Shown: in pieces, positions 210 to 57,641 of the stretch
How positions within the stretch are numbered: the first letter of the stretch is position 1
Layout of the letters: every line of letters starts with the position of its first letter
Assembly: GCA_018402525.1 (NCBI GenBank)
Contig: JAGYIR010000011.1
Location: 62,001-126,000, forward strand
Length of the DNA stretch: 64,000 bases
Origin: Crocinitomicaceae bacterium
GTDB lineage: Bacteria; Bacteroidota; Bacteroidia; Flavobacteriales_D; Crocinitomicaceae
Direction: 5' to 3'
Notes under the pieces: model-generated
Seen by the model: the letters and a program-made list of their open reading frames with translations, nothing else
Told to the model about the DNA's origin: nothing
The model's database searches: none
Program-made: the position numbers and the translations under genes

Positions 210-1739
210 CTATAAACTAATGTTTGTTGAACGTAAAATAGCAATTATCCTCTTTATATTTTCTGATTGGGGGACATCATCTGTAATTGCTGGCATTATT
301 CCACGAATCATATCGTAGATTTTCTTTGTTTTAGATGAAAGACGCTCAAGCTGACTTTGCTCTAATAAATCGATTGCTTGACAAACGGCCATCATGTGAA
401 TAGCCATTACTTGGTATCCATTCTCGATCACTTTTTTCGTCAATACAGCACTGTTTGTTCCCATACTCACGATGTCTTGGTTATCGTTGTTGTTTGGAAT
501 ACTGTGCACGTACATTGGATTCGATAATGTTTGGTTTTCAGCTGTTGTCGAAGTCGCAGTGAACTGTAATCCTTGAATTCCGAAGTTGAAGCCTAATTTT
601 CCAAGGTTTAAGAATGCAGGGAATTTATCGTTCAATTTTGCATTCAGCAAGAAATTCAACTGACGTTCCGCTAACATCGTTAAACGCGTCACAACAATCT
701 TCACCTTGTCCATTTCCAATGAAATGTAATCTCCGTGGAAATTTCCACCGTGGAATACGTTTTGCTCTTCGACACTTACAATTGGATTGTCGTTGGTAGA
801 GTTCAATTCATTTTCAATCACACTTTTGGCATAATTCAATGTTTCGAGCACTGGTCCCAAAATTTGAGGCACACAGCGAATAGAATAATATTCTTGTATT
901 TTCTTTTTGAACTCAGAGCGACCCATTTCTTCGCTGTCCTTGAACAACTCTTCACGCTTGCGAATCAAATCGCTGTCCGACAAGAACGAGCGCATATCAG
1001 CAGCCACTTTTTGTTGACCTGGGTGATGTTTTACCCCGTTTAAGCCCTGCGAGAATGAATCGTCGAATGCTTCAACCACTTCGTTGATGATAGAAGAAGA
1101 AGCTATTGACCAGTTCAATAAGCGGTATGCGTAGATTAAGTTCACAGCTCCAATTCCTGTCATGCAAGAAGTACCGTTCATTAATCCCAATCCATCGCGT
1201 AATTTTACATCAAGCGGGGAGATGCCTTTCGCTTTCAATACTTCAGCAGTTGGTTTGCGTTCACCATCAATAGTAACAAACCCTTCACCGATTAGATTAA
1301 GAGCTAAGTGCGCTAATTGGACTAAATCACCACTTGCTCCGACACCACCGTGCTCGTATATTTCCGGAGAAATTCGTTCATTTAAAAATTCCACCAATTT
1401 CTCAATAACTCCTAAACTAATTCCAGAATTAGCCTGTAAGAAATTGTTGATACGTGCAATAAGCACTGCTCGTACGTATTCTTCGTCTAAAATATTTCCA
1501 GTCCCCGTAGAGTGACTGCGAATAAGGTTGTACTGAAGTTGGTTTAACTTATCTTCATCAATTTTGAATTGCGCCATTGGCCCAAAACCGGTATTGATTC
1601 CGTAAATAATTTTGTCACTTGAAAAATCCTTTAAAAAATCGAAAGATGCATTAACAGAGGCGATAAGCTCTTTGTTCAAGGTAAAAGGCTTGAATTCAAG
1701 CGCATATTTTTCAAGGTCTGATAAGTTAATCTGATTCAT
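210..1739 (-). CDS. Tyrosine ammonia-lyase (aromatic amino acid lyase, MIO family)
   Basis: This 509-aa protein belongs to the HAL/PAL/TAL family. The MIO prosthetic group would form from A135-S136-G137, and the catalytic tyrosine is Y46 in IIYGINTGFGP. It deaminates an aromatic amino acid to the trans-acrylate. The S75-H76 pair in NLIRSHSTGTG would suggest histidine under the classic selectivity rule, but as I recall it the characterised Flavobacterium johnsoniae tyrosine ammonia-lyase carries nearly the same segment and resembles this protein along its length. The context is pigment genes with no hut genes nearby, so 4-coumarate as the flexirubin/aryl-polyene starter is the best reading. 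A promoter with a good -7 box lies about 55 bp upstream. Confidence 0.88.
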   Translation of the reverse strand: MNQINLSDLEKYALEFKPFTLNKELIASVNASFDFLKDFSSDKIIYGINTGFGPMAQFKIDEDKLNQLQYNLIRSHSTGTGNILDEEYVRAVLIARINNFLQANSGISLGVIEKLVEFLNERISPEIYEHGGVGASGDLVQLAHLALNLIGEGFVTIDGERKPTAEVLKAKGISPLDVKLRDGLGLMNGTSCMTGIGAVNLIYAYRLLNWSIASSSIINEVVEAFDDSFSQGLNGVKHHPGQQKVAADMRSFLSDSDLIRKREELFKDSEEMGRSEFKKKIQEYYSIRCVPQILGPVLETLNYAKSVIENELNSTNDNPIVSVEEQNVFHGGNFHGDYISLEMDKVKIVVTRLTMLAERQLNFLLNAKLNDKFPAFLNLGKLGFNFGIQGLQFTATSTTAENQTLSNPMYVHSIPNNNDNQDIVSMGTNSAVLTKKVIENGYQVMAIHMMAVCQAIDLLEQSQLERLSSKTKKIYDMIRGIMPAITDDVPQSENIKRIIAILRSTNISL

Positions 1740-1884: not shown

Positions 1885-2937
1885 TTACTTTCGTTTTAAT
1901 TCCAAAATTGTATGAAAACTATCTCCGTGCAAGTGGTGTTCATCCACACATTCAAATCCAGCCTTATCTACAATGTATTTCATTGCAGAAGAAGAGTACA
2001 TTTTACTGTTTCCATTTGCAATTGCCGTGAAATAAAGTGAAGTCGCAACCAAACTGTAGGTTGCTGCTGGGAAACGTTGGTTATCGATGAACGTCTCCAT
2101 GATGTACACACGTGCATCTGGTGACATGTTCTTTCTAATTTTCAACAAGATCGCTTCAATTTCCGGCTCACTGAAGCAATCCAAGAATTGACTCATCCAA
2201 TAAACGTCAGCACCAGCAGGAATTTCTGAGGTAGCGTCCAACATATCCGTTTCTTGGAAATCAATACGGTCTTTAATTTCCTGCATTGTTCCAATGTTCT
2301 CCTTAGCTGCGCGAATTTGCACAGGTAAATCGAAAATGGTTACGTTGACATCTTTATTATGTTTTGTACTCGCAATTGCCCATTTACCTGTGTTTCCACC
2401 AATGTCATAGATGCGAGAAGGACTGTCTTTGAAGATGATTTTTAGTGCGTCATCGAATGAGTTATCGGAGTAGAAGTGATCGAAATCAAACCATGATTTT
2501 TTCAAGCGACCTGGCAAGATAGATAATCCTTCGTAGATTGTTTTCCAATCTCCCAATGTTTTTAATCCTTCCGGTTTTCCGTTGACAATGGAATCTTTCA
2601 AATAAAACAATCCATTGTAGCAAATATCGTGTGTGAAGTATAGATTCACACGGGTCATTTCATCACGCAATAAAAAGTATCCAACTTTTGTTGCTACGTA
2701 ATTGCCGTTTTCTGTTTTTTCAACAATCTCCGCTGCTTCAGCCATTTCAACCAATACGCGCACACCGTATTCAGAAACATTTGTTTCCTTTGCTAATTCT
2801 TCAATCGACGCACCTTCACGTTTGTGGTTGTGAATTGCCTCTAAGATTCCAAGTTCCAACATGGTATATGCGGTCTCGAAAACAAAGGGGTTGAATGCAA
2901 TTTTATGTGCTTCGTATAAGGCTTCTAGTGCTTTCAT
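1885..2937 (-). CDS. SAM-dependent methyltransferase (plant-type O-methyltransferase fold) of the pigment locus
   Basis: This 350-aa class I methyltransferase has an N-terminal winged-helix dimerisation region (about residues 10-100). A SAM-binding motif YDIGGNTGKWA follows, with D178, G180, G181 and G184. Later come the acidic FDLP loop that contacts the ribose and a conserved MSQFLDCFS stretch. The layout matches O-methyltransferase family 2 proteins, which methylate phenolic hydroxyls or related small molecules. It is transcribed leftward ahead of the tyrosine ammonia-lyase gene (gap ~145 bp with its own promoter) and back-to-back with the rightward pigment arm. Methylation of the flexirubin aryl ring or of a precursor is a reasonable inference; the substrate cannot be read from the sequence. 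Confidence 0.82.
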   Translation of the reverse strand: MKALEALYEAHKIAFNPFVFETAYTMLELGILEAIHNHKREGASIEELAKETNVSEYGVRVLVEMAEAAEIVEKTENGNYVATKVGYFLLRDEMTRVNLYFTHDICYNGLFYLKDSIVNGKPEGLKTLGDWKTIYEGLSILPGRLKKSWFDFDHFYSDNSFDDALKIIFKDSPSRIYDIGGNTGKWAIASTKHNKDVNVTIFDLPVQIRAAKENIGTMQEIKDRIDFQETDMLDATSEIPAGADVYWMSQFLDCFSEPEIEAILLKIRKNMSPDARVYIMETFIDNQRFPAATYSLVATSLYFTAIANGNSKMYSSSAMKYIVDKAGFECVDEHHLHGDSFHTILELKRK

Positions 2938-3077: not shown

Positions 3078-3085
3078 TACTTTTG
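3078..3085 (+). promoter_or_regulatory. -7 box of the rightward pigment operon
   Basis: TACTTTTG matches TAnnTTTG and lies 30 bp before the ATG at 3116. A TTG codon in frame at 3083 is part of this box, so transcription should begin after it. The downstream ATG is therefore the real start of the first gene. No clear -33 TTG was seen. Confidence 0.55.
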
Positions 3086-3115
3086 CGGGGCTTGAACCAA
3101 ACTCAATCAATTTGC

Positions 3116-4708
3116 ATGGAAATCGAACAGTTTGATGTTATTATAATAGGCGCTGGAATAAGTGGTCTGACTTCTGCCGCGTTGCTTTCCAAGGCTGGAT
3201 TGAAAGTCTGCGTGTTAGAGCGACATTACCTGATTGGCGGCTATTTGCAAGGATTTGAACGAAAAGAATTCACCTTCGACACTGCCATTCACTGGTTGAA
3301 TCAATGTGGAAAGGACGGTACAGTGACGAAGGTGTTTAGCTACATCGGAGAAGATTTTCCACGTCCGATTGAAATGAAAACGATTCAGCGTCATATTGGC
3401 GATCACCACGATTATTTCTTGACGAACAATCCAGAAGAATTACGTGAACAGTTGATTCGTGATTTTCCCGAAGATGAAAATGGGATCAATCGTTTTTTTA
3501 AAGATGCACGCCGTGTAGCAAAGATCTCTCGAAAATTCCCCAAATTATTTAGATCTACTGAAACGATGAATTTCTTTCAGCGGATTGCTTACGGTTTACG
3601 ACGCATGTCGATTGGTTTGCCGATGGTGAAGTACATTTTTTACAGCGGAGAAGAGGGAATGAAAAAAGGTCTGTCAAAGTATTTTTCAAATCTTGCTTTG
3701 CACCAATTGTTTTGTTCTGAGCGTGATTTGCTTTCTTGCTTGTTTCCAATCGCTTGGGCATACAACAACGATTATCAAAACCCACCAATTGGAGGGAGTC
3801 AAGCATTTCCACGCTGGTTGGAGACGAAATTGGTGACAGAAAACGGTTCCCAAATCGTTCTAAGCGCCGATGTCAAAGAGATTTTAGTGGAAAACGGTAT
3901 TTTTAAGGGGGTAAAGTACATTAAACGTCACAAGGAATATGAAGTTCATGCTTCACATCTTATCGCTGCGTGTGATGTAGAAAAATTGTATTCACAGTTG
4001 CTGCCAGATTATGTCTTCACGAATCAGCTCAAAGAGAAAATGGACAGTTCAGAATTGTACAGCAGTTCTGTAACGATTTCCATGGCGCTGGACTGTTCCG
4101 CAGAAGATCTTGGTTTTGGAACGGAATTGACGTTAATTTGCAACGATGAAAGCACACGTGACGAGCACAGCAGTGGAGATCCACATAAATCGGCAATTAG
4201 TGTTTTAGCCCCAACCGTGCGTGATAAGACACTATCTCCTGTCGATAAGGGAACATTGACATTGTATGTTCCAGCGTGGATTATCTACGAGAATTATTGG
4301 AAGACCGAACGCAATGAAAATGGGGGGTTCATCCGAACAGAAGCTTACAAATCATTGAAAGAAACGTATGCAAATGTCATTATCGATCGTGTCGTGAAGA
4401 AAATGTGTCCAAATTTGAGGGAGCATATTTTGTTTTATGAAGTCGCGACTCCAATTACCTATTACCGCTATACGCAAAACAGGGATGGTTCCATGATGGG
4501 AACACGTCCAGGGAAAATCAATATGCAATCAAAAATTGCGCATTATAAAACTCCAGTAAAAAATGTTATTATTGGGGGACATTGGGCGGAGCTTGGTGGG
4601 GGAGTGCCCATCGCAACAAAAGCAGCGTACAATGCATCTTTAATTGTATTGAAGGATAAAAACATGGAGGCTTACAACGAATTGGTCGACGTAATGGAGA
4701 ACGCGTAA
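3116..4708 (+). CDS. CrtI/RetSat-like FAD-dependent oxidoreductase, first copy
   Basis: This 530-aa flavoprotein has the Rossmann motif GAGISG (G12, G14, G17), an ERHYLIGG segment after the second strand, and the FDTAIHW stretch typical of phytoene-desaturase/retinol-saturase-like enzymes. Its C-terminal FAD motif is GGHWAELGGGVPIATKAAYNA. Family members desaturate, saturate or isomerise polyene chains. I placed the start at ATG 3116 rather than the in-frame TTG at 3083, because that TTG lies inside the probable -7 promoter box. The stop abuts the ATG of the exporter fusion (TAAATG), indicating tight coupling. Action on a polyene pigment intermediate is inferred from family and context. Confidence 0.85.
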   Translation: MEIEQFDVIIIGAGISGLTSAALLSKAGLKVCVLERHYLIGGYLQGFERKEFTFDTAIHWLNQCGKDGTVTKVFSYIGEDFPRPIEMKTIQRHIGDHHDYFLTNNPEELREQLIRDFPEDENGINRFFKDARRVAKISRKFPKLFRSTETMNFFQRIAYGLRRMSIGLPMVKYIFYSGEEGMKKGLSKYFSNLALHQLFCSERDLLSCLFPIAWAYNNDYQNPPIGGSQAFPRWLETKLVTENGSQIVLSADVKEILVENGIFKGVKYIKRHKEYEVHASHLIAACDVEKLYSQLLPDYVFTNQLKEKMDSSELYSSSVTISMALDCSAEDLGFGTELTLICNDESTRDEHSSGDPHKSAISVLAPTVRDKTLSPVDKGTLTLYVPAWIIYENYWKTERNENGGFIRTEAYKSLKETYANVIIDRVVKKMCPNLREHILFYEVATPITYYRYTQNRDGSMMGTRPGKINMQSKIAHYKTPVKNVIIGGHWAELGGGVPIATKAAYNASLIVLKDKNMEAYNELVDVMENA

Positions 4709-7700
4709 ATGGGGAAGTTGTTTGCTCATATCGTCCAGTTTTTTAACCGAAATGTCGTCTTCTATCTTACGGTTTTGGTTGGGATAATTGTCTTTGCTTT
4801 CTTTGGATTCAAACGTCTCCAGCTCGATGAAAATATTTATTCCATTTTCCCCCAGGGAAAGGAGTTTCGACAATTCAACACGATTCTAAAAGGTAATAAT
4901 CTCAACAAACAGGTTTTATTTTCAATAAACGCCGAAGGAAAGGATAATTTTGACTTGGAGATCGAGCTGGATTCAATTGCTGGAATCCTCAGTGCAGAAA
5001 CGAAAGGGTTGTTAACCGATTTTATCGTTGTACGTGCGAATCAAGAAGATGCAGTGCTCAATTATCTCTATGCGCACTATCCATCGCTGTTGCAGGTTGA
5101 GGACTATAACACGATAACCCAAAAACTTGACAAGGATTCCATTCGTGTCTCCATCGGAACGGTCGCTGAGCGCTTATCTTCAGCAAGTTCCTTGTTCATG
5201 CGGAATATCCTTGCGCGTGATCCGCTTGGATTGGCGTGGCAACAGCTTCAATTGCTGAATCCGCAATCAGACTCGAGTTCCATGACAGTCGAAGACGGAA
5301 TTTTGTTCGGGAAAAACAAAGAAAAAGCCATTTTTACAGCCATTCTAGCGTTTGAATTGGACGATTCAGAAAAGAATGAAGCGCTGAATAAAACTTTAGA
5401 AAGCTTAAAGGTAAAACTCAATTCAGGACCGTCAGAAATTGACTTTGATTACTTCGGAACTTTTCAGATTTCATACGAAAATGCGCGACAAGTCAAGGAG
5501 GACACATACATTACTATGCTCGTCAGCGTAGGATTAATTCTACTGCTTTTGATTGTTTATTACAGAAGTGTATTAACGCCTATTTACTTTGTTTTACCTG
5601 CTTTATTTTCAGCTTTTTGTGGTTTAGGAGTTGTGGGATACATTCAACCTGAAATATCAGCAATCTCGATTGCGACGTCAGCTGTGTTGTTAGGGATTGT
5701 GTTGGATTATTCCTTTCACTTTTTCACCCATTACACCCATACGCGTGACTTATCAAAAACAGTAAAAGAACTTAGTTTCCCAATGTTGGTGGGTAGCTTC
5801 ACGACAGTCGCGGCATTTGCAGCATTACTCTTCACTGATTCTATAGTTTTGAAGAATTTTGGATTGATTGCACTGGTGACCCTTTCCTCTGCGGCATTGT
5901 TTACGCTTTTGTTGCTTCCGCCGTTGATTCACTTTACGCGATTCAAACCCAAAGAGCGCAAAACGAAGGAGAAACGCTTCAACGTACCAAAGCTCGTAAT
6001 GCGCTTGTCTATTTTTGCCATTCTAGCCATTTCAGTGGTGTTTCTGTTTACTTCTAACACGTTTCAGTTTGACGCGGATTTAAACAATCTTAGTTACCAC
6101 ACCGAGGAATTGGCTCAAAAAGAGGATTATTACACAGGAATCAATCCACGTGAAGAGAAGAAAATTCACTTGTTCGTAACCGGTGACTCGAAAGAAGAAG
6201 CATTGGAGAAGAACTTTGCATTGTACGAGGAATTGATACATTACAAGTCGAACCATGGTTTAGACGAGCTGATTTCCGTTGGAAGTTACGCTATTCCCAA
6301 ATCGGTGCAAGAAGAACGCTTCAGTCAGTGGAGTGCTTTCTGGAAGGGTAAATCAACGCAGACACTAGCTGAAATTAATAATAACGCTGTGGCACATGAT
6401 TTTTCTCCGTCAGCCTTTGAGCCGTTCAAAAATTGGATTTCTTCAACTTCTTCAAGGGTTACGCTTCAGGAACAAGAGGAACTGTTGGATAATTTGGGAC
6501 TTTCCTCATTGATTTATGAAAGGGATGGAGAGTGGAGCGTGACATCAAGCGTTGTGCTGCAGAAAGAGGATGTCGCGCAATTTAAGAACGCAATATCGCA
6601 AAATAGCGATGTGTTCATTTTTGACGTGTCCGAAATGGCGAACCAACTGATGCTCTCTGTTCAGGACGATTTCAATTATTTATTGTTCTTCTCGTCAATG
6701 CTGGTTTTTTTATCCTTGCTGATCATCTACGGTCGCATTGAATTGGCATTGTTTGCCTTCTTCCCAATGGTGATTAGTTGGATTTGGATCATTGGTATTT
6801 CAGGTTACGCAGGACTAGAGTTTAACTTCGTGAACATTATCATTGTGACCTTTATTTTCGGACTGGGAGACGATTTCAGTATTTTTGTCACCGATGGACT
6901 GATTCAACAATACAAGACAAAATCAACCTCGTTAGGAGCTTACAAATCGGCGATTATTCTCTCTGGAATTACAACCATCATCGGTACGGGAGTACTGTAT
7001 TTCGCGAAACATCCAGCTATTCATTCAATAGCGCTCATAAGCGTAGTTGGAATTGGTTGTATAATGCTCGTAACATTAGTCGTTCAACCGTCCATCTTCA
7101 GATACTTTGTAACAAATAGAACGAAGAAAAAACGTTCGCCAATGACGTTTTTCGGCTTGATTTACAGTATGTTTTTATTTCTCTACTTTTTTGTAGGCTG
7201 TATGGTGCTGAATGTACTGCTGGCATTGTTGTTACCCCTACCATTTCTATCCAGCAAGAAGCGTGCGATTATGAATTTTACCTTGTCAAAACTGGCAAAA
7301 TCAACGCTAGATCTAGGGTTTCACATTCGTAAAGATATAAGAAACAGAGAGCGTCTTGATTTCGCGAAGCCCTCGATCATTGTTCCGAATCACTCTTCAT
7401 TTTTGGATATTTTATTGGTGATTTCAATGAATCCAAAGGTAATCATCATGGTAAAGAAGTGGGTGTATTATTCGCCATTTTTCGGCTTGTTCATCCGCTA
7501 TTGTGGTTACTTGCACATTGCAGAAGGAACGGAGTACAACTTGAAACAAATTCAACGTAGAATTGACGAAGGTTATTCCATCGTGATTTTTCCAGAAGGA
7601 ACAAGGAGTTTAGACGGAGAGATCAAACGTTTTCACAAAGGGGCATTTTTCTTGGCTAAGGAAATGAATCTGGACATTCAACCTATTTTGATTGTAGGAG

Positions 7701-8527
7701 CGAATTATGTGAATCCAAAGAACGATTTAATTATAAAATCTGGACACCTCGTTCTTCACGTGCTCGATCGTATTAAAACAAGCGATGAAATCTACCAAAA
7801 GCGCTTTGGTGAGCTCACAAAGGAGGTCGTTACTACTATGAGAAAAGAGCTGATTGAAGCACGAAAACAAGAAAACACGTCAGATTTCTTAAGAAAACGT
7901 ATCATCTATAATTATTTGTACAAAGGGCCTGGATTGGAGTGGTATATTCGAATCAAAATGCGCTTTGAAACAAAGAACTTCGATTTTTACGAGCAACAAA
8001 TTGGAAATCGAAAGAACATTTTGGATGTAGGTTGTGGGCTAGGGTACTTAGGTTATTTCTTGCATTATAGAGACGCATCGAGAAGCATTCTTGGAGTTGA
8101 TTATGACGAAGAAAAAATTGCGATTGCGCAAAACGGCTATGATAAAACCGATCAACTTCAGTTCGAGTCCGGTGATCTTCGATCCATTGATTTCGGAAAT
8201 CAAGATGTGATATTCTTCAATGATGTCCTACATTACTTGTCTCCAATAGAACAAAAAACAGCGCTGAAGAATGCGATTGGATCACTTTCTGAAAACGGAT
8301 TGTTGTTCATTAGAGACGGTATTACCGACGATGCTGAGAAACACGCATTGACGCAACGAACTGAAAAGTATTCCACGCGCATCATTAACTTTAACAAGAC
8401 GAGCAACGATTTGCACTTTTTTTCCTCTGAGGATATGATTAAATTCGCAGATGAGCATGGATTGGAATGTCAACTGATTGAGCAATCAAAACGCACATCG
8501 AACGTGCTTTTTATTCTACGTAAATAA
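4709..8527 (+). CDS. RND/MMPL exporter fused to a PlsC-type acyltransferase and a SAM methyltransferase
   Basis: This 1272-aa protein has three modules. Residues 1-800 are an RND/MMPL-type exporter: TM1 at ~14-34, an exported loop to ~265, a TM cluster at ~268-410, a TM at ~431-448, a second loop, and TM helices at ~655-800. TM4-type acidic residues sit in LGIVLDYSFHF (D333) and GLGDDFSIF (D721-D722 region). Another TM pair (~812-845) leads into a PlsC-like acyltransferase (~870-1050) with NHSSFLD (H895, D900) and FPEGTRS (961-967). Residues ~1085-1272 are a class I methyltransferase with LDVGCGLG (1105-1112). Related pigment loci encode exporter, acyltransferase and methyltransferase functions; a single chain with all three is unusual. 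It could export and acylate the polyene. Confidence 0.85.
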   Translation: MGKLFAHIVQFFNRNVVFYLTVLVGIIVFAFFGFKRLQLDENIYSIFPQGKEFRQFNTILKGNNLNKQVLFSINAEGKDNFDLEIELDSIAGILSAETKGLLTDFIVVRANQEDAVLNYLYAHYPSLLQVEDYNTITQKLDKDSIRVSIGTVAERLSSASSLFMRNILARDPLGLAWQQLQLLNPQSDSSSMTVEDGILFGKNKEKAIFTAILAFELDDSEKNEALNKTLESLKVKLNSGPSEIDFDYFGTFQISYENARQVKEDTYITMLVSVGLILLLLIVYYRSVLTPIYFVLPALFSAFCGLGVVGYIQPEISAISIATSAVLLGIVLDYSFHFFTHYTHTRDLSKTVKELSFPMLVGSFTTVAAFAALLFTDSIVLKNFGLIALVTLSSAALFTLLLLPPLIHFTRFKPKERKTKEKRFNVPKLVMRLSIFAILAISVVFLFTSNTFQFDADLNNLSYHTEELAQKEDYYTGINPREEKKIHLFVTGDSKEEALEKNFALYEELIHYKSNHGLDELISVGSYAIPKSVQEERFSQWSAFWKGKSTQTLAEINNNAVAHDFSPSAFEPFKNWISSTSSRVTLQEQEELLDNLGLSSLIYERDGEWSVTSSVVLQKEDVAQFKNAISQNSDVFIFDVSEMANQLMLSVQDDFNYLLFFSSMLVFLSLLIIYGRIELALFAFFPMVISWIWIIGISGYAGLEFNFVNIIIVTFIFGLGDDFSIFVTDGLIQQYKTKSTSLGAYKSAIILSGITTIIGTGVLYFAKHPAIHSIALISVVGIGCIMLVTLVVQPSIFRYFVTNRTKKKRSPMTFFGLIYSMFLFLYFFVGCMVLNVLLALLLPLPFLSSKKRAIMNFTLSKLAKSTLDLGFHIRKDIRNRERLDFAKPSIIVPNHSSFLDILLVISMNPKVIIMVKKWVYYSPFFGLFIRYCGYLHIAEGTEYNLKQIQRRIDEGYSIVIFPEGTRSLDGEIKRFHKGAFFLAKEMNLDIQPILIVGANYVNPKNDLIIKSGHLVLHVLDRIKTSDEIYQKRFGELTKEVVTTMRKELIEARKQENTSDFLRKRIIYNYLYKGPGLEWYIRIKMRFETKNFDFYEQQIGNRKNILDVGCGLGYLGYFLHYRDASRSILGVDYDEEKIAIAQNGYDKTDQLQFESGDLRSIDFGNQDVIFFNDVLHYLSPIEQKTALKNAIGSLSENGLLFIRDGITDDAEKHALTQRTEKYSTRIINFNKTSNDLHFFSSEDMIKFADEHGLECQLIEQSKRTSNVLFILRK

Positions 8528-8528
8528 A

Positions 8529-10061
8529 ATGAGTACAGCGAGCAAAATATATGATTTTGTCATCATTGGAAGTGGAATAGGGGGATTGATCTCCGCTGTT
8601 TTACTTGCGATGGAAGGTAAATCTGTCATGGTGCTCGAGAAAAATCACCAAATCGGTGGAAGTCTTCAGGTGTTCAGTCGTGATAAACGTGTATTCGATA
8701 CAGGCGTGCACTACATCGGCAGCCTAGACGAAGGAGAAAACCTCTATCAGATTTTTAAATATGTTGGCATTCTCGACGATCTAAACATGTACCGAATGGG
8801 CGATGATTGTTACGATTTGATTCGCTTAGCGGATGGATCTTCATTCAAGCATGGACAAGGATACGAGCAATTCAAAAAAGGTTTGTACACTGATTTTCCA
8901 GATGAAAAAGAGGCGATCGATCAATTTTGCGACAAATTACAGGAGTATTGTAGCTATTTTCCGCTTTACAACTTGGAAATGTATGATCCTGCGAAGAAAA
9001 ATTACATCGATTCACCTGATTTACTTACGTTGAGCGGGTGGGATTTTGTCACTTCTATCACTTCAAACAAAAAAATGCAATCGGTATTGTTGGGCAATGG
9101 TCATTTATACGCTGGAGATTACAAACGAACCCCATTCTTTGTGGTAGCCTTAATCATGAACAGTTACCTCAAAGGCAGTTACCGCATGGTTGACGGGGGA
9201 TCGCAAATCGCCAAAGCGTTACAGAAGAGGTTGCGTCAGTTGGGTGGAGAAGTGCTGAAGCATCAAGAAGTTATTGGTGCGGTAAGCGATGAACAGGGGA
9301 TTGTGGCGGTATCGACAAAAGTAGGTGATATATTTCATGGCAAAAATTTCATTTCGAATGTGCATCCGCGACAAACGGTTAAAATGTTTGGAGAAGAACG
9401 TTTTCGTCCAGCCTATATGAAACGACTGGAGAATTTGAAAGATACCGTTTCGTCATTTATGCTCTATTTATCGTTGGAGGAGGATCGTTTCCCTTTTCTC
9501 AATCACAACGTGTACGCCTATGCGAATGATAATGTTTGGGATTCGGTAGAATATAATTCTGAGACGTGGCCTCAGGCGATGTTCATTTGTACACCTCCTT
9601 CGAAAAATCAAAACGATTTCGCAACTTCGCTCTCTGTCATGTGTTACATGGATTTCAGTGAAGTTAAGCGCTGGGAGTCATCGTTTAACACGGTGTCAAT
9701 TTCTGATGGAAGAGACGAAACCTACCATGCATTTAAAAAACGAAAAGAAGAACAGGTCATCTGTAAATTGGAAGAAATTTATCCTGATATTCGCAGTGCG
9801 ATTAAGGGTGTGTACAGTTCGACACCGCTGACATATAGGGATTATATCGGGACAGAAAACGGTTCGTTGTATGGCATTGAAAAAGACGTGAATACCATCA
9901 TGATCTCAAAAATGCACGCAAAAACGAAACTGCCAAATGTGTATCAGACGGGACAAAACCTGGTCTTTCATGGTATCTTAGGTGCTTCGATAGGTGCTTT
10001 GGTGACGTGTTTTCATTTTTTGGATGAAAAGGAACTGATAGAAAGAATAAAATCTGCTTAA
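8529..10061 (+). CDS. CrtI/RetSat-like FAD-dependent oxidoreductase, second copy
   Basis: This 510-aa flavoenzyme has GSGIGG (G14, G16, G19) and the FDTGVHYIG stretch that is characteristic of retinol-saturase/carotenoid-isomerase relatives. Its C-terminal FAD motif is GQNLVFHGILGASIGA. It is a paralogue of the gene at 3116-4708 and flanks the exporter fusion on the other side. ATG 8529 lies one base after the exporter stop; an in-frame start at 8478 would overlap that gene by 50 bp and add 17 residues not seen in the family, so I rejected it. The likely role is a redox step on the polyene or on an alkyl-aryl partner; the substrate is not determinable. Confidence 0.85.
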   Translation: MSTASKIYDFVIIGSGIGGLISAVLLAMEGKSVMVLEKNHQIGGSLQVFSRDKRVFDTGVHYIGSLDEGENLYQIFKYVGILDDLNMYRMGDDCYDLIRLADGSSFKHGQGYEQFKKGLYTDFPDEKEAIDQFCDKLQEYCSYFPLYNLEMYDPAKKNYIDSPDLLTLSGWDFVTSITSNKKMQSVLLGNGHLYAGDYKRTPFFVVALIMNSYLKGSYRMVDGGSQIAKALQKRLRQLGGEVLKHQEVIGAVSDEQGIVAVSTKVGDIFHGKNFISNVHPRQTVKMFGEERFRPAYMKRLENLKDTVSSFMLYLSLEEDRFPFLNHNVYAYANDNVWDSVEYNSETWPQAMFICTPPSKNQNDFATSLSVMCYMDFSEVKRWESSFNTVSISDGRDETYHAFKKRKEEQVICKLEEIYPDIRSAIKGVYSSTPLTYRDYIGTENGSLYGIEKDVNTIMISKMHAKTKLPNVYQTGQNLVFHGILGASIGALVTCFHFLDEKELIERIKSA

Positions 10062-10089
10062 GTTGGCAGATGTTTAAATTGAATTGAGA

Positions 10090-11322
10090 ATGACAAATGA
10101 TTTTGATGTTGTTGTAATCGGTGCTGGCCCTTCTGGGTCCGTTGCTGCTGCGCGCTTGATGCAAGATGGGTTCACTGTGCTGGTTTTGGAGAAAATGGAA
10201 TTTCCACGATTTGTAATTGGAGAGAGCTTATTACCGCAGTGCATGAATTATTTGGAAGCGGTTGATTTACTTTCGAGTGTCGATCGTCTTGGATTTCAAA
10301 TAAAAACTGGGGTGGCCTTTTTTCACAACAACCAGGTGTGTGATTTTCTATTTAAGGAGCGCTTTTCTGAAGGTTGGGATTATACTTTTCAGGTCAAACG
10401 AGCGGAATTTGATCATGCGCTAATCAAAGAAACGGAGCGAAAAGGAGCTGTGGTTGAATTTGGTGCAACAGTCACAAATGTGGTGACATCGGAAGAACAA
10501 CAAATCGTAACCTATACAAATAAGGAGGAGACCGAAAAGTCGATTCGTACACGATTCGTCATGGATGCCAGTGGTTATGGACGAGTCCTGCCTCGAATGT
10601 TCGATATGGAAGTCCCTGTGAGTTCACCTCCGCGAGGAGCGATTTTTTCGCATGTTCAAGACACCAAACGTTCAACAAAAGCTTCAGAAAACATATTTGT
10701 ATTTGATTTCAACAACAATACTTCTTGGATTTGGTCGATTCCTTTCTCAGATGGAACAGCATCCGTAGGTGTGGTTGGGAATACCGACTTCATTATCGAG
10801 TGCGGAGAAAACGGTGGTGAAAAATTCAAAGAGCTAGTGGATAATTTCCCGGGATTAAACGGACGATTTAAAGGAGAAGAGTATATTTTCGAACCAAAGC
10901 AGATCCTCAATTACGCTGTTTCTGTGAAGAAAATGTACGGAACTGGATTTGTGTTGTGCGGAAACAGCACGGAGTTCCTAGATCCGATTTTTAGTTCTGG
11001 AGTGACTTTAGCAATTGCTTCTGGTTACGAAGCTGCTGATCTCGTTGTAAAGCACTTAGACGGCAAACCTGTCGATTGGGAAAACGATTACGAAAAACGT
11101 ATAAAACATGGTATTGATGTGTTCAGAAGTTACGTTGAGGCCTGGTACAACGGCGATTTACACACCATTTTCTTTGTCGACGAAGGAAGCTTTGAGTTCA
11201 AAACGCAAATTTGCTCTGTTTTAGCGGGTTATGTGTGGGATCAAACGAATCCATTTGCGAAGAAGCACAAGACGGTGTTGAAGACGTTAGCGAAGGTGAT
11301 TAAGATTAGAGACGGGGAGTAG
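10090..11322 (+). CDS. FAD-dependent halogenase-like monooxygenase
   Basis: This 410-aa protein has the Rossmann motif GAGPSG (11-16), the segment FPRFVIGESLLP (38-49) typical of flavin-dependent halogenases, and a lysine (K72) in IKTGVAFF at the position of the catalytic Lys. W213-I-W215-S-I217-P218 is an exact WxWxIP motif, which marks halogenases and is proposed to block monooxygenation. DASGYGRVL (159-167) is also typical. Some flexirubins are chlorinated, so aryl-ring chlorination is a plausible job, though geranylgeranyl-reductase-like relatives share the fold. ATG 10090 follows an in-frame TTG at 10084; I prefer the ATG. It ends the rightward pigment operon, 28 bp after the preceding gene. 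Confidence 0.75.
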   Translation: MTNDFDVVVIGAGPSGSVAAARLMQDGFTVLVLEKMEFPRFVIGESLLPQCMNYLEAVDLLSSVDRLGFQIKTGVAFFHNNQVCDFLFKERFSEGWDYTFQVKRAEFDHALIKETERKGAVVEFGATVTNVVTSEEQQIVTYTNKEETEKSIRTRFVMDASGYGRVLPRMFDMEVPVSSPPRGAIFSHVQDTKRSTKASENIFVFDFNNNTSWIWSIPFSDGTASVGVVGNTDFIIECGENGGEKFKELVDNFPGLNGRFKGEEYIFEPKQILNYAVSVKKMYGTGFVLCGNSTEFLDPIFSSGVTLAIASGYEAADLVVKHLDGKPVDWENDYEKRIKHGIDVFRSYVEAWYNGDLHTIFFVDEGSFEFKTQICSVLAGYVWDQTNPFAKKHKTVLKTLAKVIKIRDGE

Positions 11323-28374: not shown

Positions 28375-31300
28375 ATGTACCTCAATACGCATACGTATTA
28401 CAGCTTGTGTTACGGCACAATTGATACCTCTGAATTATTGAGGCTGGGGAAGGAGTGTGGCGTTCAACAATTGGTGCTCACGGATATCAATACAACCTCT
28501 GCATGCATCGATTTTGTGCGGAAAGCACCAGGGTATGGTCTAAAGCCGATTGTTGGAATTGATTTTAGAAACGGTGTACAACAGCAATTTGTTTGTATTG
28601 CGAAGAATAACGAGGGATTTGAGGAAATCAACAACTACTTGAGCGAATTGTTGCACGCGACAGAAAAATGTCCTGAAAAAGCTCCTGAATTCAAACATGT
28701 CTTTACCGTTTACCCTTTCAAGAAAGGAAAAGCGTACGAGTTAGGTAAGGATGAATACATTGGGGTTAGAATCAAAGATCTTCCGTACATACGTCTCAAA
28801 AATGAGAACACGGATAAAATGGTCATCCTGCATACAGTAACGTTTCGAACGAAGAAGGATTTCAATGCACACCGCTTGCTCCGTTCGATTGATAATAATA
28901 CCCTGTTGAGTAAGCTTAATTCTACTGAGCAAGGACAAGAGAGCGACTGCATGCTTCCTGTTGCAGATTTACGTGTAGCCTTTGAAGAGTACCCGGAAAT
29001 CATCGCAAATACGCAATACCTACTCGATCAGTCGCACATTGAGTTTGATTTTTCAGAAAAACGATCGGAAAACCAGCATTCCTACACGGGCTCCATGGAG
29101 GAAGACGTGAAATTGCTCCGTCAACTGTGTTTAGAGGGATTGGATTATCGTTATCCTGTATTGTCTGACATCATTCAGGAACGAGTGGAAAAGGAATTGG
29201 AGGCCATTCAGCAAATGAATTTTGTGTCCTATTTTTTGATTAATTGGGACATTGTGTCTTACGCTCAATCAAAGGGATATTACTACGTCGGTAGAGGTAG
29301 TGGCGCGAACAGTATTGTTGCTTACTTGTTGAAAATCACAGATGTTGACCCCATTGAATTAGACTTATACTTTGAACGATTTATCAATTTATTTCGGAAG
29401 AATCCACCTGATTTTGACATTGATTTTGCTTGGACGGACCGTGACGATGTCATGCGCTACATTTTTGAACGGTTTCCGTACGTTGCACTTGTCGCGACGT
29501 ACAACACGTTTAAAGATCGCTCTGTCGTGCGTGAACTAGGAAAGGTATTCGGACTTCCGAAAGAAGAAATTGACCGTTTAACGCGCTCGCATCATGCGCA
29601 AGATGAACTTTCCTCCTTGGTATTGAAGTACAGCAGTTACATTCAAGGATTTCCGAGTCATTTGAGCTTGCACCCCAGTGGAATGGTTATTTCTGAGCGA
29701 CCTGTTCATTACTTTTCGCCAACGTTTATTTCACAAAAAGGCTATAAAACCATTCAATTTGACATGCATACCGCCGAAGATATGGGCTGGTACAAATTCG
29801 ATGTTTTAAGTCAGCGTGGGTTAAGTAAAATCAAAGATGCAGTTAGGATTATCGGTTACAACCGACCTGAACTGGAGCCAATTGATGTGCATGACATTCA
29901 ACGATTCAAGCACGATGAGCGGATCAAAGGGTTGTTGCGTGAAGCTGATGCCGTGGGATGTTTTTATGTGGAATCGCCCGCCATGCGGATGTTACTGCGG
30001 AAGTTGCAAGTCGACAATTACCTAGGATTGGTGGCAGCGAGTTCGGTAATTCGTCCCGGCGTTGCAAAATCAGGAATGATGCAGGAATACATCAAGCGTT
30101 ATCGGCATCCTGAACGGATTGAGAAAGAGGGGGATGTACTTTACACACTGATGCCTGAAACCTTTGGGGTGATGGTGTACCAGGAGGATGTGATTAAAGT
30201 CGCGCATTACTTTGCGGGGTTGACCTTGGGAGAAGCCGATAAAATGCGCCGAGGAATGTCAGGGAAATTCAGGTCGCGCGAAGAGTTTGCACAAGTGAAG
30301 GAGCAGTTTTTTGAAACGAGCATCAATGTAAAAGGAAACTCGTATGAGTTGACAAAAGAAGTGTGGCGTCAAACGGAAAGCTTTGCGGGATATGCCTTTG
30401 CGAAGGGACACTCAGCTTCTTACGCAGTGGAAAGTTACCAATGTTTGTTTCTGAAAGCGTACTATCCGCTCGAATTCCTCGTGGCGACAATCAACAATTA
30501 CGGCGGGTTTTTCTCCACCGAACTGTATGTGCTTGAAGCGAAACGACTAGGAGCGAAGATTTCTTCCATTTGTGTAAATAAAAGTGGTATTGAGACAACT
30601 ATCTACGGAACAGAGGTTTACTTGGGGTTTCACCTGTTGCATTCACTGGAGAGCAAAATGGCTCGAGCAATTCTCCGCGAACGCTTGCAAAACGGAGATT
30701 TTATCGATTTGCAGGATTTCGTCGATCGCGTAAGGATTTCATTGGAACAAATCACCTTGCTCATTCGTATCAACGCCTTTCGATTCACGGGGAAGAACAA
30801 GCGTCAATTGCTCTGGGAAGCACACATGAAAGTCGCTCCAGCAAAGAAGGTCAATCCCGAAAAAAGTCTTTTTGCTGTCGCGACAAAAACGTATGAACTG
30901 CCTGAATTGAACTGTTCAACCCAAGAAGATGCGTTTGATGAACTGGAATTATTGGGATTCACACTCGACAGTTATTTCAATCTTTTACGGTCGGAAAGTC
31001 AACGAGAAGTAGTTCTCTCGAGTCAACTAAGCGCTTTAAACGGACAAAAAGTGTGGGTGAGGGGGTATTTGATCCATGTGAAAAAAACGCACACATCCCA
31101 AGGTGGATTGATGGGGTTCGGCTGTTTTCTGGATTCTAAAGGGAATTGGTTGGATACTGTTCACTTCCCTGAGATCATGCGAAAATACCCGTTTCGTGGC
31201 AAGGGCGTGTATGAAGTCTACGGGAAAGTCACCGTGGAATACGACTGCGTCAACATTGAAGCGGAACACATGGAGAAGATGGAAATCATTGAAGATCCTC

Positions 31301-31389
31301 GTTATTCAGTAATTGCGCCTAAGCCGTTATCGAATGGTGTGGTGGTTAACAACGACAAAATTGATTATTGGCAGAAGGAGCGTAAATAG
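28375..31389 (+). CDS. dnaE: DNA polymerase III alpha subunit, short translesion-type DnaE
   Basis: This 1004-aa C-family polymerase is shorter than the ~1150-aa replicative DnaE. It has an N-terminal PHP domain (first motif altered to LNTHTYYS, so HxH is NxH) and a catalytic core with PPDFDIDF (D348 and D350 as metal ligands). GRGSGANSIVAYLL, the MRRGMSGK finger region, and a C-terminal OB-fold-like part from ~890 follow. It is paired with the Y-family polymerase gene 29 bp downstream, as in bacterial damage-tolerance cassettes. The recA-like imuA partner is absent here. A palindrome upstream may be its operator. Error-prone repair is the likely role; the replicative dnaE should be elsewhere. 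Confidence 0.88.
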   Translation: MYLNTHTYYSLCYGTIDTSELLRLGKECGVQQLVLTDINTTSACIDFVRKAPGYGLKPIVGIDFRNGVQQQFVCIAKNNEGFEEINNYLSELLHATEKCPEKAPEFKHVFTVYPFKKGKAYELGKDEYIGVRIKDLPYIRLKNENTDKMVILHTVTFRTKKDFNAHRLLRSIDNNTLLSKLNSTEQGQESDCMLPVADLRVAFEEYPEIIANTQYLLDQSHIEFDFSEKRSENQHSYTGSMEEDVKLLRQLCLEGLDYRYPVLSDIIQERVEKELEAIQQMNFVSYFLINWDIVSYAQSKGYYYVGRGSGANSIVAYLLKITDVDPIELDLYFERFINLFRKNPPDFDIDFAWTDRDDVMRYIFERFPYVALVATYNTFKDRSVVRELGKVFGLPKEEIDRLTRSHHAQDELSSLVLKYSSYIQGFPSHLSLHPSGMVISERPVHYFSPTFISQKGYKTIQFDMHTAEDMGWYKFDVLSQRGLSKIKDAVRIIGYNRPELEPIDVHDIQRFKHDERIKGLLREADAVGCFYVESPAMRMLLRKLQVDNYLGLVAASSVIRPGVAKSGMMQEYIKRYRHPERIEKEGDVLYTLMPETFGVMVYQEDVIKVAHYFAGLTLGEADKMRRGMSGKFRSREEFAQVKEQFFETSINVKGNSYELTKEVWRQTESFAGYAFAKGHSASYAVESYQCLFLKAYYPLEFLVATINNYGGFFSTELYVLEAKRLGAKISSICVNKSGIETTIYGTEVYLGFHLLHSLESKMARAILRERLQNGDFIDLQDFVDRVRISLEQITLLIRINAFRFTGKNKRQLLWEAHMKVAPAKKVNPEKSLFAVATKTYELPELNCSTQEDAFDELELLGFTLDSYFNLLRSESQREVVLSSQLSALNGQKVWVRGYLIHVKKTHTSQGGLMGFGCFLDSKGNWLDTVHFPEIMRKYPFRGKGVYEVYGKVTVEYDCVNIEAEHMEKMEIIEDPRYSVIAPKPLSNGVVVNNDKIDYWQKERK

Positions 31390-31418
31390 ATTACGGAGTA
31401 AATCTCGAATTTTGGAAC

Positions 31419-32627
31419 ATGGATAGAGCAATTGCACATATGGATTTAGACACTTTTTTTGTCTCTTGCGAGCGACTCATCGACAGTCGGTTGAACAATC
31501 GCCCTGTGTTGATTGGCGGAACATCGGACAGGGGAGTAGTGGCATCTTGCAGTTATGAAGCCAGGAAGTTTGGGATTCACTCTGCAATGCCGATGAAAAT
31601 GGCGCGCATGCTTTGTCCCGAAGCGATTGTTTTACGTGGGAATTCAGGAATTTACTCGAAGTATTCTAACCTTGTGACGGACATCATTAAGGAGACTGTT
31701 CCCTTGTATGAAAAAACCTCTGTGGATGAGTTTTACCTTGATTTAACAGGCATGGATCGCTTTTTCGGCTGTCAACAACTGGCGTCTGAATTACGTGCTA
31801 AAATCATCCGAGAGAGTGGACTTCCCATTTCTTTTGGCTTATCGCTTAATAAAACAGTCTCAAAAATTGCCACAGGAGAAGCGAAACCGAACAACGAACT
31901 CAACATTTTGCGGGGAACGGAAAAGCCGTTTTTAGCTCCGCTGTCCGTGCGTAAAATTCCCATGATTGGTGATAAATCCTTTCGAATGCTCTGCGATTTA
32001 GGCGTTAAACGCATTCAATCTATTCAAGAAATGCCTGTTGAATTAATGGAAAAGGTGTTTGGAAAACACGGCATTGTGATGTGGAAAAAGGCAAATGGCA
32101 TTGATAACAGCCCTGTGATGCAATACAGCGAGCGGAAATCCATTTCCACGGAAAGAACGTTTGACAAGGATACGATTGATGTACAAAAACTAGAATCGAT
32201 CATGATCGCTATGGCAGAAAACCTGGTGTATCAATTGCGAAGAGGGAATAAACTCACAGCATGCGTCACGGTAAAACTCCGTTATTCTGATTTTCAAACC
32301 TTCACGCTTCAGCAAAAAATTCCCTACAGTGCTGCCGACCACGTATTGATTCCCATTGTGCTCGATTTGTTCCGAAAACTCTACAATCGTCGTGTGTTAG
32401 TCCGCTTGATTGGAGTGCGTTACAGCCATTTGGTTGAAGGGGCACATCAAATCAGTTTGTTCGAAGATGAAAATATGTTGCACCTCTACAAAGCCATGGA
32501 TCGCATCCGTGAGAAATATGGAGATAGGGCTGTGATGCGTGCTTCGGGGATGACGGCGAAAAGTATCAGTCGCTGGAACCCGTTTAATGGAGAGCCACCG
32601 CCGTTGTTGGCGAATCGGAGACGGTGA
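31419..32627 (+). CDS. dinB: Y-family translesion DNA polymerase (DinB/Pol IV-like)
   Basis: This 402-aa protein has the Y-family catalytic motifs HMDLDTFF (D9) and SVDEFY (D103, E104), with F12-F13 at the steric-gate region. It also has LSLNKTVSKIA and a C-terminal little-finger domain. QISLF near residue 343-347 is a good beta-clamp-binding motif. Because the catalytic acids are intact, it should be an active polymerase, unlike ImuB, whose catalytic acids are lost. It is co-oriented with the short dnaE 29 bp upstream and so shares its regulation. Confidence 0.92.
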   Translation: MDRAIAHMDLDTFFVSCERLIDSRLNNRPVLIGGTSDRGVVASCSYEARKFGIHSAMPMKMARMLCPEAIVLRGNSGIYSKYSNLVTDIIKETVPLYEKTSVDEFYLDLTGMDRFFGCQQLASELRAKIIRESGLPISFGLSLNKTVSKIATGEAKPNNELNILRGTEKPFLAPLSVRKIPMIGDKSFRMLCDLGVKRIQSIQEMPVELMEKVFGKHGIVMWKKANGIDNSPVMQYSERKSISTERTFDKDTIDVQKLESIMIAMAENLVYQLRRGNKLTACVTVKLRYSDFQTFTLQQKIPYSAADHVLIPIVLDLFRKLYNRRVLVRLIGVRYSHLVEGAHQISLFEDENMLHLYKAMDRIREKYGDRAVMRASGMTAKSISRWNPFNGEPPPLLANRRR

Positions 32628-55065: not shown

Positions 55066-55073
55066 TAGTTTTG
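55066..55073 (+). promoter_or_regulatory. -7 box of lptD
   Basis: TAGTTTTG matches TAnnTTTG. It contains the TTG at 55071 that is otherwise the first in-frame start, so translation should begin further downstream. Confidence 0.45.
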
Positions 55074-55112
55074 CTTCGTTTAAAGCGTCAGTCAAACAAA
55101 AATAACACAGAA

Positions 55113-57641
55113 TTGTTTTTCAAAAAGTGTACCATACATCTAGTTTTGCCCTTGACATTGTTAATAATGTTGGTTTCACTGTTTGGTTACGGTCAGAAAG
55201 TTGATACGCTTTACCTTGATGATTCAGCTGTGGATCAACCCATTATCTACAGCGCAAAAGATTCCATTTACACTGATTTAAAAAATAAACAGGTGCATCT
55301 TTTTAATGAGGCAAAAGTCGATAATGGTGAAATTAAACTAAAGGCAGGTTATATTTTAATTGATCTAGGTAAAAATGAGGTTTACGCTCGTTACAGCTAT
55401 GATGAAGATTCCAACCGTGTGCAGTTGCCTGAATTTAGCGACGGAAAGGAGGTAATGAATGCTTCAGCAATTCGCTATAACACAGAAACGAAGAAAGGAT
55501 ATATCGAAGAAGTTGCAATCAAACAGGACGAGAACTACTTGTACATGGAGGTAGCAAAACGTCACTCCAACGAAGAAATTCACTTTTTAAAAGGCCGATT
55601 TACGACATGTGACTTGCCCGATCCCCATTATCATTTCCAATTGTCACGCGCCGTAATGATTCCCGAGAAACGCATTGTTTCGGGACCAATGAACTTATGG
55701 CTCAAAGGGGTCCCTACACCACTTGGATTGCCTTTCATTGTGATTCCACAATCTGAAGATCGTACTTCGGGACTGGTGTTTCCGCAAATCGTTCCGACTT
55801 CGCAATACGGATTTGGATTGCAAGATTTAGGCTACTATATACCGATCAATGATCGCTTGCAAACAACGTTGTATGGGAGTCTATACAGTCGCGGTACGTG
55901 GGGATTAAGAAATCTAACGGAATATGCCAAACGCTACAAATACCAGGGAGATGTAGATCTAGGTTTTCAACAATTTCGTTCGGGTTTTCCAACGAATACC
56001 AATAGAAACAAATTGAGTTTATTATGGAATCACCGTCAGGACACAAAAGCCAACCCATTTTGGAATTTCTCATCCAACGTTAATTTTGTTTCTGACAACA
56101 CGACAAAAAATGATTTAGATCCACTGAATGAACAGTATTTTAACAATACATTGTATTCCGATATCAACCTGAATCGCTCTTTTCCCGGCAAGCCAATTAC
56201 TGCAGGGATGAAAATTTCCTTGCGTCAAAACTCATTATCGAAAAATATTTCGTTGACCAGTCCTTCGGTGAATGTCAACGTTACCCGTTTCTTTCCGTTT
56301 AAAAAGATGATCAATGGAACAGGAACACTGAAGGATATTGTTTCACGCATTGGTGTCGCTTACAATTTTGAAGGAATCAATAAATCGGAATTTGGTGATT
56401 CGTTGCTTTCCCGAGGTGATTTTGCAGGAATTGGCAATCAATACATGAATGGTATGAACCAAACAATGGTCGTTCAAACAACTGCAGGATTCTTTAAAAA
56501 CACGTGGAAGTTAACCCCTTCATTGAATTATGGTAATCGGATGAACTTTCAGCAAGTGCGTAAATCTTACGATGCTATCAATAATGCAACAATCACCGAT
56601 ACTATCGGCGAGTTCGGCATGGCACACAGTTTATCGATGACGGCGCAAATGACTACAGCGGTTTATAGTTATTACAAATTCATCGGTAAGCGTCAATCGC
56701 TTTTAAGGCATGTTTTGACTCCTTCTTTTGGGTTTTCTTATGTTCCCGCATTAAATAGATTAATTACGGATAGTGTTGGGGTGAACATGGCTCCGGTCAC
56801 CTATTCTCCTTTTGAACGCAGTGCTTATACGAGCGGGGTGGTAAATGACCAAGCACTGTTGACGTTTGGATTCAATAACACCTTCGAGTTAAAACGAAAA
56901 TCGGACAAAGACACCATCACAGGCTTCAAAAAAACGCGCATCATCGATGCCCTTTCTATCAATGGAACATACGACTTAATGAAGGACTCCATGAATCTTT
57001 CTGATATTCGAATCAACATGCGAATTAGTCCCATGACATGGCTAAATTTTGTGGCTAGTTCAAGTTTTTCACCCTACAATTGGAGTGATTCTACAGGTGC
57101 AACGCTTGGAGATTATGCCATTAACGGAAATGGACGTTTAGGACGTTTTATTACGAATTCATTTTCTACCACGTTGACCATCACCTCTAAAGAAAGTCAC
57201 AAAAAACTGGAATCCACCAAAGAAAACATAGAAACGAACTGGAACGCAGACTACGAATATTTTATGCTGTATCCTGAACGTGTAGTCAATTTTGAAATTC
57301 CCTGGAAAATGACTTTGTCACATGTCTATACCATCAATGCGAACCGCAATATCTCGACATTTAATCCAGATCGATGGACACAAGTCCAAACGCTAGTGTT
57401 AGATGGAGATTTAAGTTTTACCAAACGCTGGAAAGTTGTTGGAAACATTAGTTTTGATATGAAGGAAAAGAGAGCGACCAATGCGCGATTTGCGTTAACA
57501 AGAGACATGCACTGCTGGGCACTTTCGTTCAACTGGGTACCTTTGGGTGGAAACAAGAGTTTCCTGTTCAGTATTCGTTCCACTTCTCAGTTGTTTAAGG
57601 ATGCAAAAATTGACATCCGAAAACCACCATTGTTTTTATAA
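55113..57641 (+). CDS. lptD: LPS-assembly protein LptD (OstA-type)
   Basis: This ~842-aa outer-membrane protein has a signal peptide, an OstA-like beta-taco domain (~35-200: DSIYTDLKNKQVHLFNEAKVD ... YIEEVAIKQDENYLYM, given in parts), a GRFTTCDLPDPHYHF segment, and then a large C-terminal barrel with many aromatic strands. LptD inserts lipopolysaccharide into the outer leaflet. The frame is open from TTG 55071, but that codon lies in the promoter box. I prefer TTG 55113, which gives a compact signal peptide, though the exact start is uncertain. It is divergent from the amidase gene, an arrangement I recall from other Flavobacteria. Confidence 0.85.
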   Translation: MFFKKCTIHLVLPLTLLIMLVSLFGYGQKVDTLYLDDSAVDQPIIYSAKDSIYTDLKNKQVHLFNEAKVDNGEIKLKAGYILIDLGKNEVYARYSYDEDSNRVQLPEFSDGKEVMNASAIRYNTETKKGYIEEVAIKQDENYLYMEVAKRHSNEEIHFLKGRFTTCDLPDPHYHFQLSRAVMIPEKRIVSGPMNLWLKGVPTPLGLPFIVIPQSEDRTSGLVFPQIVPTSQYGFGLQDLGYYIPINDRLQTTLYGSLYSRGTWGLRNLTEYAKRYKYQGDVDLGFQQFRSGFPTNTNRNKLSLLWNHRQDTKANPFWNFSSNVNFVSDNTTKNDLDPLNEQYFNNTLYSDINLNRSFPGKPITAGMKISLRQNSLSKNISLTSPSVNVNVTRFFPFKKMINGTGTLKDIVSRIGVAYNFEGINKSEFGDSLLSRGDFAGIGNQYMNGMNQTMVVQTTAGFFKNTWKLTPSLNYGNRMNFQQVRKSYDAINNATITDTIGEFGMAHSLSMTAQMTTAVYSYYKFIGKRQSLLRHVLTPSFGFSYVPALNRLITDSVGVNMAPVTYSPFERSAYTSGVVNDQALLTFGFNNTFELKRKSDKDTITGFKKTRIIDALSINGTYDLMKDSMNLSDIRINMRISPMTWLNFVASSSFSPYNWSDSTGATLGDYAINGNGRLGRFITNSFSTTLTITSKESHKKLESTKENIETNWNADYEYFMLYPERVVNFEIPWKMTLSHVYTINANRNISTFNPDRWTQVQTLVLDGDLSFTKRWKVVGNISFDMKEKRATNARFALTRDMHCWALSFNWVPLGGNKSFLFSIRSTSQLFKDAKIDIRKPPLFL

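Follow-up and report, generated by a model that had tools for sequence, protein, structure and literature searches.

Flexirubins have a long history as a taxonomic marker. For Chitinophaga pinensis, the available excerpt of PMC3992019 lists under flxP-flxU a polysaccharide deacetylase, a phospholipid/glycerol acyltransferase, LolA, a glycosyltransferase and a predicted exporter. In E. coli, comparable roles have been proposed for ApeM, ApeD and ApeB in the excerpt of PMC8253772, but these are encoded by separate genes. In this study, we analysed a window of 64,000 nucleotides (the whole stretch of DNA considered) from a Crocinitomicaceae bacterium (GCA_018402525.1, contig JAGYIR010000011.1, positions 62,001 to 126,000), which carries a gene joining an exporter, an acyltransferase (AT) and a methyltransferase (MT). 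RefSeq already uses the name 'trifunctional MMPL family transporter/lysophospholipid acyltransferase/class I SAM-dependent methyltransferase' (SAM, S-adenosylmethionine), and the window protein, with the same three domains in the same order and a similar length, is a further member of this kind. An example is WP_264793640.1 from plasmid pAUEa of Aureispira anguillae (32% identity to the window protein). The neighbours of the Aureispira homologue are alike, namely a flavin adenine dinucleotide (FAD) oxidoreductase, a C45 protein and an AMP-binding protein, but C45 and FlxY of the window genome lie elsewhere. For the Persicobacter homologue, the RefSeq name covers the acyltransferase alone. The C. 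pinensis flexirubin cluster and the window share the same pathway and a similar gene content, and the fusion is present in other Chitinophaga species. Unlike in the C. pinensis cluster, the genes of the window genome are in three places: the window with its left flank, contig C2 with the dialkylresorcinol (DAR) genes, and C7:653 kb with C45/FlxY. We propose, with a probability of about 0.5, that the fusion would be the membrane finishing-and-export protein of the flexirubin pathway, with its AT esterifying the polyene to DAR.

The gene was a complete open frame from ATG to stop, encoding 1272 amino acids (aa), and its parts were as follows.

4709..8527, plus strand: MMPL-AT-MT fusion gene, 1272 aa (frame, Pfam domains, motifs)
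4709..7138, plus strand: exporter part, HpnN-like RND/MMPL, residues 1-810
7151..7843, plus strand: PlsC-like AT, residues 815-1045, with H895-X4-D900 (7391-7408) and FPEGTR 961-966 (7589-7606)
7889..8524, plus strand: class I MT domain, residues 1061-1272, with motif I DVGCGLG 1106-1112 (8024-8044)

Pfam detected MMPL in two stretches (best 259-423), Acyltransferase at 877-995 and Methyltransf_25 at 1104-1197, all above gathering cut-offs. This confirmed the preliminary description of the DNA, which had placed an RND/MMPL transporter, a PlsC-like AT and a class I MT in one 1272-aa frame; HX4D, FPEGTR and DVGCGLG, which it had called intact, were all found. The exporter showed the MMPL domain and RND fold of the RND/MMPL superfamily, the AT the HX4D and FPEGTR blocks and the fold of PlsC-like acyltransferases, and the MT the motif I GxGxG, motif II acid and fold of class I SAM methyltransferases. 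AlphaFold2 models gave a predicted local distance difference test (pLDDT) of 91.9 and a predicted template modelling score (pTM) of 0.88 for AT and MT (residues 800-1272), and a pLDDT of 84.8 and a pTM of 0.75 for the exporter (residues 1-814). Among solved structures, the hopanoid transporter HpnN (6wu0, 5khn) came first when compared with the exporter part by sequence and ranked near the top by fold, but it lacks AT and MT and has another cargo. The fusion did not reach the NCBIfam cut-offs for HpnN (TIGR03480, 105.7 against 751.85; NF052374, 55.6 against 1100). E. coli ApeM scored 147 bits with the fused-exporter profile. By gene order, the fusion probably corresponds to the exporter encoded within C. 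pinensis flxP-flxU, which is probably FlxU. PlsC of Thermotoga maritima (5kym) shares the AT fold over 240 residues, but is free-standing and named a lysophosphatidic acid acyltransferase. Exporter residue 722, the conserved Asp in transmembrane helix 10 of RND/MMPL proteins, was D in 139/139 aligned sequences. Position 333, which we take to be the Asp of the proton relay in transmembrane helix 4 of MmpL proteins, was D in the window protein and N or S in 55/139 sequences, with a gap in one.

We compared homologues with and without the AT domain. In family f6 (299 genomes), the protein was found in 71, and 14 of these had the exporter only (termed MMPL-only, in open frames that span 809-1002 aa); adding G347 from family f12 brings the MMPL-only genomes to 15. 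DarB was present in 27/28 AT-bearing genomes, the exception being G394, and in 0/15 MMPL-only genomes (Fisher p 1e-10, a value that ignores kinship and the hand choice of genomes). CrtI2, the CrtI-like FAD oxidoreductase encoded after the fusion, was present in 17/17 AT-bearing genomes tested (14 f6, 3 f5) and in 0/14 MMPL-only f6 genomes, so that AT, CrtI2 and DarB were jointly absent in this computed comparison. The MMPL-only f6 loci kept the same slot, with GT2-DUF2062 and LolA in 14/14 and the C45 and FlxY-like genes in 13/14. Because they were retained there, the C45 and FlxY-like genes do not track DAR. Among 395 class genomes, an even draw, DarB was matched in 60/67 AT-bearing, 0/2 MMPL-only and 11/326 other genomes; the protein and DarB counts are assumed to come from the same 395 genomes, as the settings and all listed handles agree. 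In a FastTree tree built on the exporter columns of 70 rows, the MMPL-only label needed three changes. Its rows stood in three places (10 f6, 4 f6, and G347, whose branch is long and uncertain), and the association between AT and DarB therefore rests on two or three events. A fused-type AT was not found elsewhere in the 15 MMPL-only genomes by the fused-AT profile: 14 had PlsC-level matches of 56-73 bits only, and the free acyltransferase of G347 scored 94.6, while four fused ATs scored 252-353 bits in the same search. These results suggest that the presence of the AT follows the DAR branch and make it a candidate flexirubin ester synthase. The simplest view of this co-occurrence is that the fused AT belongs to the DAR branch, where it would most likely form the polyene-DAR ester. 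The preliminary description had raised the joining of the polyene to a DAR as a possibility; the idea has gained genomic support, since the AT tracks DarB and the genome has DAR genes, and the support is correlational. That the fused AT is missing together with the CrtI-like oxidoreductase and DarB singles out one gene domain as a candidate for joining polyene and DAR, and the C45 enzyme thereby becomes a weaker candidate for this step.

Several observations weigh against this proposal. The co-occurrence of AT and DarB is not a perfect rule. Seven of the 67 AT-bearing class genomes had no DarB match; G394, G588, G606 and G690 lacked it although at least 99% complete, and G523, G585 and G607 were only 71-78% complete. 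Conversely, DarB occurred in 11/326 class genomes without the protein, six times in a longer form of 617-635 aa. MMPL-only G347 retained an adjacent CrtI2-like gene (30% identity), and its free acyltransferase, at 94.6 bits, exceeds the housekeeping level. The FPEG of the AT block was FPEA or FPES in 29/30 f5 fusions (L192-L221); NHX4D was intact in all 30. All 43 genomes of the DarB comparison were picked by hand, the 28 AT-bearing ones from longer lists. The aryl polyene cluster of E. coli CFT073, with no annotated DAR gene, encodes an RND exporter and the PlsC-like AT ApeD, which the fused-AT profile scored at 89.5 bits, slightly more than the 76.3 for the PlsC-like protein of the window genome. 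According to the excerpt of PMC8253772, deletion of apeD in E. coli leaves partial pigment. Proteobacterial polyene clusters are also said to conserve an acyltransferase with an exporter-like gene next to it (PMC3949708, in excerpt).

These points bear on a different role, in which the AT would acylate a membrane lipid or glycolipid anchor, another enzyme such as C45 would make the ester, and the link between AT and DarB would mark a fuller pigment type. PlsC, as the name given to 5kym implies, is a glycerolipid enzyme. ApeM, ApeD and ApeB are separate in E. coli, in a cluster with no annotated DAR gene, and anchoring by ApeD/ApeJ has been proposed (PMC8253772, in excerpt). For the ester itself, Schoener et al. 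suggested a ligase-like FlxW in the excerpted part of PMC3992019, and by gene order the C45 acyltransferase is probably FlxW. Together with the four nearly complete AT-bearing genomes without DarB, this makes the anchor role a real, if lesser, possibility. However, C45 is retained in nearly all MMPL-only f6 loci of genomes that lack DarB and hence is not DAR-specific, and the MMPL-only genomes hold no match in the range of the fused ATs, the G347 protein included.

Some related loci deserve mention in their own right. About 3 kb upstream of the L125 fusion lies a free-standing 252-aa acyltransferase (L125:6226-6984), which the fused-AT profile scored at 234 bits. MMPL-only homologues of 991-996 aa in L231, L232, L241 and L242 had about 170 extra C-terminal residues, to which NCBIfam assigned nothing in the two scanned. 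In MMPL-only clusters, the place of CrtI2 was occupied by a cupin-like (Cupin_8) frame of about 290 aa at L150:10499-11371 and by a similar-sized frame at L230:9785-10666. The DarB-like frames of 617-635 aa, against the usual 380, lay in genomes without the fusion (G405, G422, G559, G600, G687 and G722) and possibly represent another dialkylresorcinol system.

We then considered the MT domain. The alignment had 139 sequences, some of them identical, and 80 of the 115 rows outside one clade had been picked for best likeness to the window protein. Motif I DxGCGxG was intact in 115/115 rows outside this clade and in 0/24 inside it (L011-L034, families f5 and f6). The same split was seen for W1078, Y1079, D1106, G1110, D1131, H1175, Y1176 and R1202, kept in 115/115 and in 0/24, respectively. 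The 24 broken MTs were still recognisable (hmmsearch E 3e-14 to 7e-7, against 0.07 at best for shuffled copies; hhalign probability 97.6). In a FastTree tree of the exporter and AT columns only (137 rows), all 24 lay on one side of a branch with support of 100, and the loss is therefore counted as one change. The MT was broken in 60/60 further sequences read, the best 30 of 71 f6 and the best 30 of 55 f5 matches. As 12 of these were already among the 24, an intact MT was found in 0 of 72 distinct f5/f6 genomes examined. A replacement copy was not found in the 13 of these pseudo-MT genomes that were searched. Since the MT is dead in 72/72, export in general cannot depend on its catalytic activity.

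The fused MT is likely not the head-group enzyme. By blastp, it had no ApeB match and matched FlxJ at only 24% over 160 residues (E 9e-4, superfamily level), and a profile of the intact fused MTs gave no match to ApeB or FlxJ at E 0.1. E. coli ApeB is related to FlxJ rather than to the fused MT, and the FlxJ/ApeB-type protein of the window is likely the aromatic head-group MT. Modification of the polyene by the fused MT before export, as the preliminary description had it, is thus weakened, since FlxJ fits the head-group role better and two families have only a dead fused MT. The name 'trifunctional' would overstate the abilities of the f5/f6 copies, and the decay predicts methylation in the products of MT-intact species and its lack in f5/f6. 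No earlier description of the MT decay or of the AT-DarB association was found in the literature searched, which excluded most subscription journals and all preprints.

The dead MT nevertheless evolves under constraint. Its ratio of nonsynonymous to synonymous differences (pN/pS) was 0.14-0.34 over 10 non-independent pairs. In these pairs the exporter and AT gave 0.05-0.12, and the intact MTs of 8 control pairs gave 0.03-0.16. Because this exceeds the values for exporter and AT yet lies far below 1, the dead MT is still maintained, presumably for its structure. That the pseudo-MT remains fused and conserved would also agree with a fusion serving mainly for localisation, with AT and MT tethered to the exporter and the dead MT acting as a structural cap or linker. 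We consider this improbable, as 15 homologues lack both the AT and the MT domains and G607, whose genome is 71% complete, encodes the MT in a frame of its own.

Returning to the finishing-and-export proposal, we can outline how such a protein might work. An HpnN-like RND exporter would sit in the inner membrane, with the AT attached to its C-terminus, probably on the cytoplasmic side, followed by the class I MT. The AT would take the finished aryl-polyene acyl group from an acyl carrier protein and esterify a phenolic hydroxyl of the DAR made by DarA/DarB, as co-occurrence and PlsC chemistry suggest. As the analogy with HpnN and ApeM/ApeL suggests, the exporter would then move the ester, still bound to the membrane, outward to LolA and on to the outer membrane. 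The MT may methylate one of the partners as an optional decoration, its catalysis having been lost in two families. The orientation, the substrate hand-over and the methyl acceptor are what we infer for this scheme. The joint statement that the AT is the flexirubin ester synthase on the exporter itself, and that the MT is an optional tailoring domain turned pseudoenzyme once in the f5/f6 ancestor, is tentative, and we rate it somewhat below even odds.

We also asked how the single frame is distributed. Among 395 genomes drawn evenly from the phylum, 30 besides the window's had a homologue in an open frame of 1165-1305 aa. In the class genomes, drawn separately, 69/395 had a match at E <= 1e-40, and in 53/395, window included, one frame ran to the MT end (a match starting at residue 150 or earlier and reaching at least residue 1205). 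Ten of the other 16 matches ended before the MT end (six being pseudo-MT genomes), two were MMPL-only and four began after residue 500, these being fragments, except that G501 has a 1451-aa frame whose match fell into two parts. In GTDB r220 contigs, at least 594 stretches matched the pattern and 592 of those listed code for a relative, with double counting possible. The best 80 loci were retained; they include Fluviicola, Crocinitomix, Dyadobacter, Chitinophaga, Mucilaginibacter and Phocaeicola vulgatus ATCC 8482, but not C. pinensis itself. A single frame of at least 1200 aa was found in 80/82 named loci; L087 was split into two frames and L120 was shortened to 1101 aa. The nearest tree row, L067, had a continuous frame with 71% identity over 1041 exporter and AT columns. 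Since relatives carry the same protein in one frame, a frameshift or misassembly at 7080-8000 is very unlikely. An assembly or annotation artefact fusing separate genes has nothing in its favour in the window itself, and only the split L087 and the separate MT frame of G607 among relatives; as far as predicted frames tell, the relatives already refute it, and we give it next to no credence. A frame split in relatives, which would have signalled an artefact, was thus the rare case, and the three-domain order, for which the preliminary description had proposed a search, was found across Bacteroidota. Its surprise at the fusion was not borne out: with a RefSeq name and homologues recurring across genomes, the architecture is already named and common in Bacteroidota.

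The neighbouring genes in the window were the following.

210..1739, minus strand: FlxA tyrosine ammonia-lyase (NCBIfam NF053541, 818 bits, cut-off 700)
1885..2937, minus strand: FlxJ/ApeB-type methyltransferase (47% identity to E. coli ApeB over 350 residues)
3083..4708, plus strand: CrtI-like FAD oxidoreductase 1, its stop abutting the ATG of the fusion at 4709
8529..10061, plus strand: CrtI-like FAD oxidoreductase 2 (CrtI2), its likely ATG one base past the fusion stop
10084..11322, plus strand: FAD-dependent halogenase-like protein (Trp_halogenase, Pfam)

The spacing is that of a tight operon, since the upstream stop abuts the fusion ATG and the next ATG (8529) follows one base after the stop. 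FlxJ was a near miss for NCBIfam NF053543 (455 bits against 560). Left of the window lay ketosynthases, acyl carrier proteins, dehydratases, a thioesterase, an LpxL-like acyltransferase, a polysaccharide deacetylase and LolA, calls assigned from sequences and homologues, with Pfam support for the LpxL-like one only. DarB (614 bits), DarH (460) and FlxY (546) of the window genome exceeded NCBIfam cut-offs; DarB and DarH were in one gene run on contig C2, and C45 and FlxY at C7:653 kb. As FlxA, FlxY, DarB and DarH all exceed NCBI cut-offs, the genome thus holds the parts of a predicted flexirubin pathway, and the link to a polyene pigment drawn in the preliminary description was right. CrtI2 was present in 67/82 loci within the flank covered. 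The order LolA...GT2-DUF2062, fusion, CrtI2-like, C45, FlxY-like was seen in Chitinophaga (L089), Phocaeicola vulgatus (L112), Persicobacter (L146) and an f6 genome (L148), and in an f5 genome (L149) the fusion adjoins DarB and DarH.

Two further features of the window were noted away from the fusion. At 28375-32624, a Y-family polymerase (IMS, IMS_C) comes immediately after a 1004-aa DnaE-type polymerase (PHP, DNA_pol3_alpha, finger, HHH_6), a pair that resembles a mutagenesis cassette. An LptD-like protein (LptD_2, 398 bits) is encoded at 55071-57638.

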